A stretch of DNA of 64,000 nt from positions 1-64,000 of the forward strand of contig JACPUT010000006.1 of assembly GCA_016192145.1 (NCBI GenBank), in the 5' to 3' direction. This DNA comes from Acidobacteriota bacterium (GTDB lineage Bacteria > Acidobacteriota > Holophagae > Holophagales > Holophagaceae). The notes under the pieces were generated by a model. That model saw only the letters and a program-made list of their open reading frames with translations. It was not told the DNA's origin and did not search any database. This document shows, one piece after another, positions 35,882 to 39,303 of this stretch. The position numbers and the translations under genes were made by a program. Within the stretch, counting starts at the first letter, position 1; each line of letters starts with the position of its first letter.

Positions 35882-38266
35882 TCAGGCCGTGACCGACGCG
35901 GCCAGCTGGGCCACGGCGCCCTTGAGCTTCTTCAGATCGAAGGGCTTGCCCAGGTGGGGCAGGGCGTTCTTTTCGAGGAAGCTCTGGGTTTCGGCGTCGA
36001 AGGCGTCGCCCGTGGTGAAGAGGATGCGGCGCGTGAGCTCCGGCTTGTGCTGTTGGAGCCATGCGTAGATGTCCATGCCCGTGAGGCCCGGCATGCGGAT
36101 ATCGGAGAGGACGAAGTCGAAGTCGGCCTCCTGGAGCTTGGCCACGGCAGAATCGCCGCGAGCCGCGGTCGTGACCTCCACGCCCCAGGCTTGGAGGGCC
36201 TCCTGGAGGCATTCCAGGAGGAAACTCTCGTCATCCACCACGAGGGCCTTCAGGCCCGAAATGGAGGCGGCGGGCTTGGGCGTTGGGGCCGGGGCGGCCT
36301 CGGTGAAAGGCAGCTCCATCAGATAGGCGTTCCCGAGCCCCATCTGGCTGCGGAGGGTGAGCTTGCCGCCGTGGGTGCGGGCGATGGCCTCGGCCATGGG
36401 CACGGCGAGGTGCTCGGAGCTGGTGGCGCGGTTCGGCTTCAACAGGGCCGCGAGCTCATCGGGGGTCAGGGGATTGCCGCTGTCCTGGACCAGCACCTGC
36501 AACATCTCACCCGCCCTGCGGGTGGCGATGCGGAGCCGCTTGGTGGGGCTCTGGGCCATGGAGGCGAGGCCTTGGGTGATGAGGCTCTGCAAGGCCAGGC
36601 TCAGGAGTTCCCCATCCAGGGCGGCCAGGGGCAGGGTGGGATCCAGGCTGGATTCCAGGCTGGCGGCCTGACGCTGGGCCAGCGGCTCCATCGCCTTGAG
36701 GCACTCCTGGGCCAGGTTGTTCAGGTTCACGCCCGTGCGACGGGGGGCCGGGGGATCCAGCACGAGGAGCATCGGTTCCAGCATGGATTGGAGGGATTCC
36801 GCGGCTTTGGCGAGGCGCGTGGCCTGCTCCTGCTGATGGGGATCCATGGCGGATTCCAGGATGAGGCGGGATTCCAGGAGCACCGGCGTGAGGCGGTTGG
36901 CCACCTCATGGAAGAGGCCGGGCACGAGGCGGCCCAGGGTCTCGAACTGGCGGCTCTGCGCCAGCTGATTCTCCAGGCTCTTGGTCTCCTCGAGGTCGCG
37001 CACGAGGGCGCTCACGGCGAGCACCCGCTCGTCGGTGCCGCGCACGGGGGCATAGGAGATCCGGGCGGGGAAGGCCACGCCCCCCTTGCGGAGGCGCGTG
37101 GATTCCAGGTCCCGCATCTGCTGACCGCGGATGACCTGCTGAACCTGGCCTTCCGCTTCAGGGACGAGGGAGTCCGGCACGAGCATGGACATGGGTTTCC
37201 CCACGATCTCGGGGCGCTGGTACCCGAAGATCCGCTCGGCGGAGGCATTCCAGGTGAGGATCTTCCCCTCCGGCGTGAAGGAGACGAGGGCCTCGCCCAT
37301 GCTCTGCACGAGCCCTTCCAGATACCGGCGCGTCTTCTGGTTGTCCTGGTTCACGCGCTCCAGCTGCTGGTAGAGCTGGGCCATCTCCTCGTTCTTGCGC
37401 TCCAGGCTCTCCTTGGTGCTCTTCAGCTCCGAGTAGAGGCGGGCCGTCTCCATGTTGGATTTGAGGGCGTCTTCCAGCAGTTCCTGGGCGTCGGCCACGT
37501 GGCCCGGCTGCAAGTCGTTCACGCTCACGTTGCTGTGGCGCAGCACCGTCTGGTCCTGGTTGGCCTGCATGTGCTGGGGTGGCTCGGCGGGGGCGGGCGG
37601 CAGCTCGCGCATGGAGCCGCGGATGTTGGATTCGATGAGTCCGAGCATCTCGTCGAAGTCCTTGATCTTCTTGTCCAGGTGGTACTTCTTGAAGGTGTAG
37701 GCCACCGTCTCCTTGGTCACTGCCAGGAAGGTGTCGAGCACGCCCAGGCCCTTGTAGGCCGTGGATTCGAAGTAGGGCACGGAGCGGAAATTGAGGCGGC
37801 GGTTCATGACGCCCACGGCCATGGCGTCGGGCAGGTCCCGCTTGTTGTACTGGATGACGAAGGGGATCTGCTTGATGTTCAGGCGGTTCGCGTTGAGGTT
37901 GTGGTAGAGGTTCGAGAGCGAATCGACGTTGTCCTGCATTTTCGATTCGCTGCTGTCCGCCACGAAGACCACGCCGTCGGCCCCGCCCAGCACCACGCGC
38001 CGGCTGGCGTCGTACTGCACCTGGCCCGGCACCGTGTACACCTGCAGGTGGATGGCGTTGCCGTAGATGTAGCCGAGGTTGATGGGCAGCAGGTCGAAGA
38101 AGAGGGTGCGGTCCTCTTGGGTGTTGACGCTGAACATCTCGCCCCGCTGGCCCTCGCTGCACATGGAGTGCAGCACCTGCAGGTTGGTCGTCTTGCCGGA
38201 GAGCCCCGGTCCGTAATAGACCAGCTTGAGCAGGATCTCGTTGGCTCGGGTATTGAACTGGACCAT
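35882..38266 (-). CDS. MglA-type GTPase fused to PAS, histidine-kinase-like and receiver domains
   Basis: A 794-residue protein with an unusual architecture. Residues 1-195 form a small Ras-like GTPase of the MglA group (P-loop GPGLSGKT 19-26, TVPGQVQY, NKRD). A Pro-rich linker and coiled coil (about 255-310) lead to a PAS domain (about 315-430), a dimerisation/H-box region (GLFHEVANRLTPV, His453), a weak HATPase-like region (about 545-655, DSGNPLTPDEL, THGGKLTLRS) whose G boxes are degenerate, and a complete receiver (about 672-790; VVDDE, Asp722 in SDIRMPG, Lys in LGKPF). MglA proteins control polarity and motility in Myxococcus. Here a GTP switch is joined directly to a two-component output. 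ATG 38266 opens directly into the GTPase fold. Confidence 0.9.
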   Translation of the reverse strand: MVQFNTRANEILLKLVYYGPGLSGKTTNLQVLHSMCSEGQRGEMFSVNTQEDRTLFFDLLPINLGYIYGNAIHLQVYTVPGQVQYDASRRVVLGGADGVVFVADSSESKMQDNVDSLSNLYHNLNANRLNIKQIPFVIQYNKRDLPDAMAVGVMNRRLNFRSVPYFESTAYKGLGVLDTFLAVTKETVAYTFKKYHLDKKIKDFDEMLGLIESNIRGSMRELPPAPAEPPQHMQANQDQTVLRHSNVSVNDLQPGHVADAQELLEDALKSNMETARLYSELKSTKESLERKNEEMAQLYQQLERVNQDNQKTRRYLEGLVQSMGEALVSFTPEGKILTWNASAERIFGYQRPEIVGKPMSMLVPDSLVPEAEGQVQQVIRGQQMRDLESTRLRKGGVAFPARISYAPVRGTDERVLAVSALVRDLEETKSLENQLAQSRQFETLGRLVPGLFHEVANRLTPVLLESRLILESAMDPHQQEQATRLAKAAESLQSMLEPMLLVLDPPAPRRTGVNLNNLAQECLKAMEPLAQRQAASLESSLDPTLPLAALDGELLSLALQSLITQGLASMAQSPTKRLRIATRRAGEMLQVLVQDSGNPLTPDELAALLKPNRATSSEHLAVPMAEAIARTHGGKLTLRSQMGLGNAYLMELPFTEAAPAPTPKPAASISGLKALVVDDESFLLECLQEALQAWGVEVTTAARGDSAVAKLQEADFDFVLSDIRMPGLTGMDIYAWLQQHKPELTRRILFTTGDAFDAETQSFLEKNALPHLGKPFDLKKLKGAVAQLAASVTA

Positions 38267-38356
38267 GGGCGGCCGCCAGAAGGGGAAGGTCTAAAGATTA
38301 CAAGGCTTTTGGCCGGTCTGCCAAACCAGGCCTCAAAGGCTCCTCGGCAGGCGCTG

Positions 38357-38365
38357 TGCTAGGAT
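38357..38365 (+). promoter_or_regulatory. Extended -10 element upstream of the uppS leader
   Basis: TGCTAGGAT matches an extended -10 (TGnTAnnaT). It would start transcription near 38372, so the transcript would carry both leader ORFs and both hairpins before uppS. No clear -35 is seen. Confidence 0.4.
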
Positions 38366-38402
38366 CAAGTCCTGCGTTTCCAAGGCCAACTTGTACATCC
38401 AC

Positions 38403-38495
38403 ATGGGCAGTCCGGTTCCAGTCGCGATCATCTTCTCGGTATCCCCTGCGGGGATACGCGAGACCCATACGCAGTGGGAACGGAGCGCGGCCTAA
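38403..38495 (+). CDS. Possible leader ORF 1 upstream of uppS (30 aa)
   Basis: ATG to TAA, 30 residues beginning MGSPVPVAIIFSVSPAGIRE. It contains the hairpin at 38439-38457. Its N-terminal pattern (VPVAII) echoes UppS (VPRHVAII), and its IIFSVSPAGIRET echoes leader ORF 2 (IIISASPSGIPET). No ribosome-binding site is evident, so translation is uncertain. Confidence 0.3.
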   Translation: MGSPVPVAIIFSVSPAGIRETHTQWERSAA

Positions 38496-38571
38496 GCCGG
38501 GGAGGGGTTTTGAGCGTTCCGCGCCACGTCGGCATCATCATCTCGGCATCCCCTTCGGGGATACCTGAGAC
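38435..38571. repeat. Two ~40-bp hairpin-bearing repeats in the uppS leader
   Basis: Copy 1 (about 38425-38465) holds the perfect stem GTATCCCC-TGC-GGGGATAC; copy 2 (about 38531-38571) holds ATCCCC-TTC-GGGGAT. Both are preceded by ATCATC.TCTCGG and followed by GAGACC. The copies are about 107 bp apart, the distance of one leader-ORF module. Confidence 0.8.
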
Positions 38572-38617
38572 CGCAGGGCTTCCGGCCTTCAAGTGCTGTC
38601 TGGGCCGGGTGGCGTGA
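38510..38617 (+). CDS. Possible leader ORF 2, a degenerate copy of the UppS start (35 aa)
   Basis: TTG start with GGGGAGGGG 2-3 nt upstream, and a stop overlapping the uppS ATG (GTGATGA). The first residues, SVPRHVGIII, repeat SVPRHVAIIM of UppS; the DNA copies (38511-38541 versus 38618-38648) differ at about five positions, most of them synonymous. The downstream part encodes SASPSGIPET over a hairpin. It could be a leader peptide coupling translation into uppS, or a decaying duplication. Confidence 0.4.
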   Translation: MSVPRHVGIIISASPSGIPETAGLPAFKCCLGRVA

Positions 38618-39303
38618 TGAGCGTTCCCCGCCACGTGGCCATCATTATGGACGGGAACGGCCGGTGGGCCGCCGTCCGGGGGATGGCGCGCATCAAGGGG
38701 CACAAGGCCGGCGTGCAGGCCGTGGAGCGGATCCTGGATGAGGCCTCGGCTCTGGGGATCCCGCACCTGAGCCTCTACGCCTTCTCCACGGAGAACTGGA
38801 AGCGCCCGGCCCTGGAGGTGGCGGCCCTCATGGCCCTCCTCCGCATGTACCTCCGCATGTTCGTGCAGAAGCTCCAGAAGCGGCAGATCCGCTTCCACCA
38901 CTTGGGGGACCTTTCGGGCATGCCCGAGGGCATCCAGCGGGACGTGAAGGAACTGGAGCGGCTCACGGCCCACCACACGGGCATGACCTTCCACCTCGCC
39001 GTGAACTACGGGTCCCGCTCGGAGCTGGTGCATGCCGCCCGGGCCTGCGTCCTGGACGGCCTCAAGCCCCAGGAGATCACCGAGCAGGCCATCCAGGACC
39101 GCCTCTGGACGAAGGGCGTGCCCGACGTGGACCTCCTCATCCGCACCAGCGGCGAGCATCGCATCTCCAACTTCCTGCTTTGGCAGTGCGCCTACGCGGA
39201 GTTCTTCATGACCGACACCCTCTGGCCCGATTTCGGGCCCGAGGCCCTGCGCGCGGCCCTGGAGGATTTCTCCAGCCGCGAGCGCCGCTTCGGAGGCCTC
39301 TGA
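38617..39303 (+). CDS. uppS: Undecaprenyl diphosphate synthase (isoprenyl transferase)
   Basis: Makes C55 undecaprenyl diphosphate from FPP and IPP, the carrier lipid for peptidoglycan and LPS. A 228-residue cis-prenyltransferase: HVAIIMDGNGRWA (the Asp and Asn-Gly-Arg-Trp of the FPP site), GHKAGVQAVERI, YAFSTENWKRP, NYGSRSEL and LLIRTSGEHRISNFLLWQ. All conserved regions are present. ATG 38617 is chosen because MSVPRHVAIIM matches the family start; a GGGTGG motif lies just upstream. It is the first gene of uppS-cdsA-dxr-rseP and overlaps cdsA by one base. Confidence 0.96.
   Translation: MSVPRHVAIIMDGNGRWAAVRGMARIKGHKAGVQAVERILDEASALGIPHLSLYAFSTENWKRPALEVAALMALLRMYLRMFVQKLQKRQIRFHHLGDLSGMPEGIQRDVKELERLTAHHTGMTFHLAVNYGSRSELVHAARACVLDGLKPQEITEQAIQDRLWTKGVPDVDLLIRTSGEHRISNFLLWQCAYAEFFMTDTLWPDFGPEALRAALEDFSSRERRFGGL

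Follow-up and report, generated by a model that had tools for sequence, protein, structure and literature searches.

The leader of uppS in the window, a 64,000-nt stretch of an Acidobacteriota genome from the family Holophagaceae, probably carries, in tandem, two copies of a palindromic Holophagaceae cassette that is mobile, contains no gene, and replaces the ends of its host genes. The unit is dispersed with a stereotyped anatomy, differs precisely in presence or absence between sister species, has a foreign origin in one clear case, and leaves behind displaced gene ends, some of which have decayed.

The first-pass annotation, made from the letters of the window, had described two leader ORFs ahead of uppS with hairpins, a TTG start of ORF 2 behind a strong ribosome-binding sequence, and a TGATG overlap of ORF 2 with uppS, and each of these features is present (Table 1). 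The stop TGA of ORF 2 (38615–38617) and the ATG of uppS (38617–38619) have one A in common, and the stop of ORF 1 ends 14 nt before the start of ORF 2. Two direct repeats, both with a spacing of 107, link the units: 38404–38465 matches 38511–38572 (62 nt, 76% identity), and 38500–38541 matches 38607–38648 (42 nt, 81%). The top ungapped direct-repeat score within 38350–38700 was 27.5, compared to a maximum of 13.5 among 300 dinucleotide shuffles; the leader repeat is far beyond chance. The two unit hairpins have folding energies of −20.5 and −15.7 kcal/mol. Divergent from uppS, on the reverse strand (35882–38266), lies a gene for a 794-aa protein with Ras/MglA-like GTPase, PAS, histidine-kinase-like ATPase and response-regulator domains.

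Table 1. Positions of the uppS leader features in the window
Feature	Position	Strand	Basis or remark
Possible −10 promoter hexamer, TAGGAT	38360..38365	+	Candidate from sequence; upstream of leftmost start
T0, leftmost, decayed start copy; opens ORF 1	38403..38434	+	Sequence, repeat comparison
ORF 1, leader ORF through hairpin 1	38403..38495	+	Begins MGSPVPVAIIFSVSPAGIRET
Cassette 1, 107 nt: hairpin 1, spacer and start copy 2 to cut site	38435..38541	+	
Hairpin 1, CTCGGTATCCCCTGCGGGGATACGCGAG	38435..38462	+	Pattern search, folding
Shine-Dalgarno-like GGGGAGGGG of ORF 2	38499..38507	+	Sequence
ORF 2, leader ORF, TTG start	38510..38617	+	Begins SVPRHVGIIISASPSGIPET
Cassette 2, 107 nt: hairpin 2, spacer and functional uppS start to cut site	38542..38648	+	
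Hairpin 2, CTCGGCATCCCCTTCGGGGATACCTGAG, slightly degenerate	38542..38569	+	Sequence, folding
uppS, polyprenyl diphosphate synthase, 228 aa	38617..39303	+	TIGR00055, 267.9 bits (cut-off 109.6)

Comparison of uppS leaders among related genomes revealed an empty state, in which cassettes are lacking (L013, L018, L023, L028, L032 and others). A TAGnAT-like stretch also precedes the leftmost start in relatives. The leftmost copies have decayed in several genomes (ORF 1 of the window, L014 and L015), and T0 is probably the relic of the native uppS start. The first-pass annotation had named absence from relatives, or frameshifts, as the mark of decaying repeats without function. Many relatives do lack the units, and leftmost copies do decay, but the leader frames have been retained free of stops.

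The hairpin also occurs elsewhere in the same genome, beyond what the reader of the window could see. A search of the uppS leader against its own genome returned short matches, the strongest across the hairpin, and the pattern CTCGNTAT-N-ATACNNGAG gave nine exact copies, with none for the reversed control. The consensus is CTCGGTAT-NNNN-loop-NNNN-ATACGCGAG, and the stem covaries: among 114 distinct hairpins, pair 10–18 is GC in 59 and CG in 39, and pair 11–17 is CG in 58 and GC in 49. Under a strict pattern, the hairpin was found in 50 of the 61 family genomes, at 0 to 23 copies per genome, with the reversed-pattern control near zero. Across the GTDB representative genomes scanned it is almost confined to the Holophagaceae, named Geothrix species included. 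The window and 22 carrier loci gave no relevant match to Rfam 15 at the gathering score. In a flank logo, C[AT]T[CT][CT]T immediately precedes the hairpin, ahead of CTCGG, and the outer end of the duplicated segment shows no motif.

About half of the hairpin copies lie in non-coding foldback repeats with a different, ACAAACTGATATCTG-like right flank, whose outer arms also appear to covary; these repeats may be the ancestral habitat of the hairpin. Larger non-coding repeats with long foldback arms, which seem to covary, hold the hairpin at L051, L084, L088, L101, L109 and, in genome G012, L197–L215, the last being composite elements of roughly 260 nt. At L039, L047, L062 and L113 it sits in one arm of intergenic inverted repeats of CACCAAGACACCAAG units.

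Roughly half of the 281 distinct hairpin copies belong to a cassette of stereotyped build, located where a gene starts or ends. Its order throughout is truncated gene end, hairpin, spacer (beginning ACCTC or similar) and intact gene end; the truncated end lay to the CTCGG side of the hairpin in the cases examined. An anchored flanking direct repeat with a score of at least 15 was present at 131 of the 281 copies and at 2 of 672 control positions, although the cassette counts mix homologous genes of related species, are thus not fully independent, and yield p-values that overstate independence. Cut-site offsets cluster at 100 to 108 nt. Measured from the hairpin, the cut site mostly falls 72 to 79 nt beyond it, though hairpin length varies from 26 to 38 nt, and smaller groups lie at about 40, 125 and 140 nt. 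The codon phase at which the hairpin begins is the same for 49 of 50 cassettes at gene starts and for 30 of 36 at gene ends, a constancy due at least partly to the flank motif. Tandem arrays of two to six units exist; at L081 (G062:C7), six hairpin units stand in tandem at one gene end with a 68-nt period, compared to the usual 103 to 107.

More than 20 unrelated host genes carry the cassette; gene families were checked for ten of these, and the remainder were named from sequence knowledge. At gene starts the hosts include uppS, polA, cydB, larB and genes for a MacB-like permease, a mannose-1-phosphate guanylyltransferase-like protein, a ThiF/MoeB-like protein and an amino-acid permease, to which we add, as presumed from reading the sequence, trxB, purE, folP, rdgB and a DUF502-like gene. 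At 3′ ends they include rpsU, rpsT, uvrB and genes for biotinyl-domain proteins, 2-oxo acid dehydrogenase E2, an RqcH-like protein, a NifU-like protein and others. This range tells against the proposal that the leader is a duplicated initiation module controlling uppS: the same cassette occurs at the starts of polA, cydB and larB and at the 3′ ends of rpsT and rpsU, where initiation control cannot apply, and it is patchy and in at least one case clearly imported, not locally duplicated.

The differences between ORF 2 and uppS had been called largely synonymous. Six of the first 11 codons differ, including the start codon (TTG/ATG); three of these differences are synonymous (CCG/CCC, GTC/GTG and ATC/ATT) and two nonsynonymous (GGC/GCC and ATC/ATG), so that this pair by itself lends the statement little weight, but it holds over many loci. 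Truncated and intact ends together show 124 synonymous and 59 nonsynonymous codon differences, with no stops in 617 codons. The predominance of synonymous changes fits the joining of two ends, each of which evolved as a working gene.

The 3′ end of rpsT, where the cassette is present or absent between Geothrix sister species, provided the clearest case of foreign origin. In genome G096 (L433), the gene body is 98% identical to those of three empty sisters, one of which (L430) has a native end that matches the distal fragment at 94% identity. The cassette differs by 14% from a cassette of another species and by 33% from its own distal fragment, and, its transcription terminator included, it is closest to cassettes of other species. 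By these sequence comparisons, the L433 cassette is imported. The combination of a native distal fragment with a foreign cassette bearing a gene end indicates that cassettes spread horizontally and replace gene ends. The rpsT cassettes (L404–L433) carry their own terminator hairpin with a common TTTGTTTTG-like tail, and rpsT thereby keeps a terminator.

At polA, 14 of 29 Geothrix species are filled and 15 empty. On the polA gene tree this distribution takes eight changes, six of them forced by well-supported branches, and shuffled labels average 10. With at least six to eight changes, the trait turns over quickly. Sister pairs such as L375/L387 and L379/L386 differ by precisely one polA unit, with both sides 94 to 97% alike (95 to 97% for L375 and L387). 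The cassette starts form a separate family, MAEDRLYLI encoded with GAG-GAT-CGC-CTT; displaced starts and empty genes use GAA-GAC-CGC-CTC. The Glu-3 codon is GAG in 13 of 14 cassette starts versus 1 of 29 displaced and empty starts. In 6 of the 14 genomes the displaced start has acquired amino-acid changes, a mixture that relics of differing age should show; a test for decay of the polA T0 copies gave a modest signal (p = 0.04). Spacer distances correlate weakly with gene distances, in units too short for a firm phylogeny. The repeat ends are chimeric at L382 and L375, and these sequences suggest that recombination within gene-end homology may deliver or remove cassettes. Part of the pattern of filled and empty genomes is accounted for by loss through recombination between the copies.

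The truncated copy at a gene start retains its start codon, from which an open frame extends across the hairpin. The first stop in this frame lies between −15 and +8 nt relative to the functional start in 48 of 55 cassettes from about ten genes, compared to 6 and 8 of 55 for the control frames. MacB-like loci show this geometry with unit lengths in all three residues modulo 3, and it is therefore not one inherited length. There was no coupled stop at purE, rdgB or the APC permease gene, and a search for mirror-image coupling at gene 3′ ends was negative, as expected (3 of 36, with 4 and 5 for the control frames). Overlap of stop and start, as in ATGA or the TGATG present in the window, is a known signature of termination-reinitiation coupling (PMC6728339); in the cassettes, unlike known coupling, the upstream cistron is the gene's own truncated start, left by a mobile unit. 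Thus, of the control modes first suggested for uppS, coupling is supported in its stop-at-start geometry, but as a general property of the cassette and not one specific to uppS, and attenuation found no support. Judging from the reading frames, it is most likely through coupling that a host gene continues to be expressed behind the cassette, and not for coupling that the cassette exists.

In the model that we propose, a cassette comprises a 28-nt hairpin, a spacer and a replacement host-gene end that runs to a cut site at a fixed distance of ∼75 nt from the hairpin. Within the first or last codons of a gene, it occupies the cut site, which follows a C[AT]T[CT][CT]T-like motif. The old gene end stays beyond the hairpin as a truncated fragment, and the cassette's own copy, often synonymously different, serves as the working gene end. 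We infer that a cassette is transferred when donor and recipient gene ends recombine to either side of the hairpin, and that the same repeats mediate tandem growth and loss. Where the host end is a gene start, transcription and translation would probably enter from the old start; the truncated start would open a leader ORF that crosses the hairpin and terminates on the new start, and the gene behind the cassette would probably be translated by termination-reinitiation. On this reading, the decayed old start opens ORF 1 of the window, the start of cassette 1 opens ORF 2, and that of cassette 2 opens uppS.

A hairpin transposon with an unusually long target-site duplication (about 75 bp), in which survivors at gene ends are those restored by the duplication and gene conversion keeps the coding parts alike, is a somewhat unlikely alternative. 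It would account for the constant 72 to 79 nt at many unrelated genes despite varying hairpin length, for full-length 75-nt repeats at some rpsT loci (L255), and for the truncated and intact copies that are near-identical in some genomes (L034, L231). The last also fit local duplication or gene conversion and count against replacement by a mobile cassette; flanking repeats could be copies of the local target at L034, L231 and L255, but not at L433. Against this alternative, the spacer does not reproduce the native flank, even at loci with near-identical coding repeats (L007, L034 and L100 compared with L013), the L433 cassette is foreign and no copy of its own displaced end, and truncated copies have too few nonsynonymous changes for neutral local duplicates. 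In view of the spacer and the foreign cassette, a simple 75-bp target-site duplication was rejected as the whole story, but such duplication may describe the first insertion at a new gene.

We consider it unlikely that the unit is a REP-like single-strand transposon of the IS200/IS605 or RAYT type, in which a hairpin end and a pyrimidine-T cleavage motif define a one-ended ∼105-nt unit. The size of the hairpin would suit such an element, as would the motif C[AT]T[CT][CT]T, which abuts the hairpin and, by way of the direct repeat, also marks the opposite end of the unit. However, the unit has no GT[AG]G foot, and the Y1 transposase (PF01797) is absent from the genome of the window (G000), from G004 and G014, and from most carriers searched; the Y1 genes detected in relatives lie near no hairpin of this type. 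A RAYT/Y1 transposase was accordingly rejected as the mobilizer.

That the leader is a conserved regulator controlling undecaprenyl phosphate synthesis through uppS, by coupling or attenuation, is very improbable. In most species with the leader, its ORF does stop on or beside the uppS start, but the same unit stands at many unrelated gene starts and ends, many relatives lack it at uppS, and it matches no Rfam family; a uppS-specific device is thus largely refuted. Functionless, decaying tandem repeats from replication slippage deserve almost no credence: decayed leftmost copies and arrays of two to six units would fit, but slippage cannot explain the dispersed hairpin, the stereotyped spacing, the foreign cassettes or the stop-at-start geometry, and as the main account it is refuted by the anchored repeats at many genes and the foreign cassette at L433.

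By organization, the nearest known systems to the replacing cassette are the WHO elements of Torulaspora and Lachancea, which replace the end of FBA1 at each integration and leave fragments, the duplicated gene end serving as a homology arm (PMC7282813). Both systems show gene-end fragments beside a complete gene that ends in the element's allele, tandem clusters and discordant gene ends (PMC7282813), and a fragment next to a complete gene with another allele's end was found at rpsT L433 and at the polA cassette starts. However, WHO elements carry an endonuclease gene and use the FBA1 3′ end, whereas the cassette, at ∼105 nt, has no room for a gene and occupies both ends of many genes; homing is hypothetical for the cassette. 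REPs and REPINs with TnpA-REP are likewise dispersed hairpins of 20 to 40 nt whose structure is conserved by covariation (PMC6006769, PMC3116915, PMC3733652), but the cassette lacks their 5′ foot (GTAG or GTGG), has a low copy number, lies at coding ends in about half of cases and, unlike REP/RAYT systems, occurs in several genomes without a Y1 gene. MITE-like repeats, including Rickettsia palindromic elements and YPAL, are also small palindromic non-coding mobile units, some within coding genes (PMC2229807). YPAL target duplications are 3 to 26 bp (PMC2229807), in contrast to an apparent duplication of about 75 nt here, which in the clearest case (L433) is not a target copy. Rickettsia palindromic elements keep the hairpin in the mature protein, whereas the cassette has the intact gene end on the far side of the hairpin. 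WHO elements in organization and REP/MITE elements in size are the closest parallels, and neither fits fully. No comparable element from Geothrix or the Acidobacteria turned up in the literature searched.

The strongest case for a dedicated enzyme, or for target duplication at the first insertion, comes from the fixed 75-nt spacing at unrelated genes. We tentatively entertain, at somewhat short of an even chance, a form of protein-free bacterial homing, in which a ∼105-nt hairpin cassette, mobilized by an enzyme that acts at a fixed distance, would spread by substituting a recoded end of its own for those of essential genes, and would keep gene-start targets expressed through coupling to the displaced start. 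The stereotyped spacing and the single hairpin consensus offer a concrete handle for a search for that enzyme. For annotation, cassette leaders mimic short genes and regulatory upstream ORFs. If correct, replacement of gene ends by a mobile cassette would account for patchy, synonymously recoded gene ends across a bacterial family, and would represent a strategy by which small selfish DNA occupies essential genes (uppS, polA and ribosomal protein genes) without breaking them.
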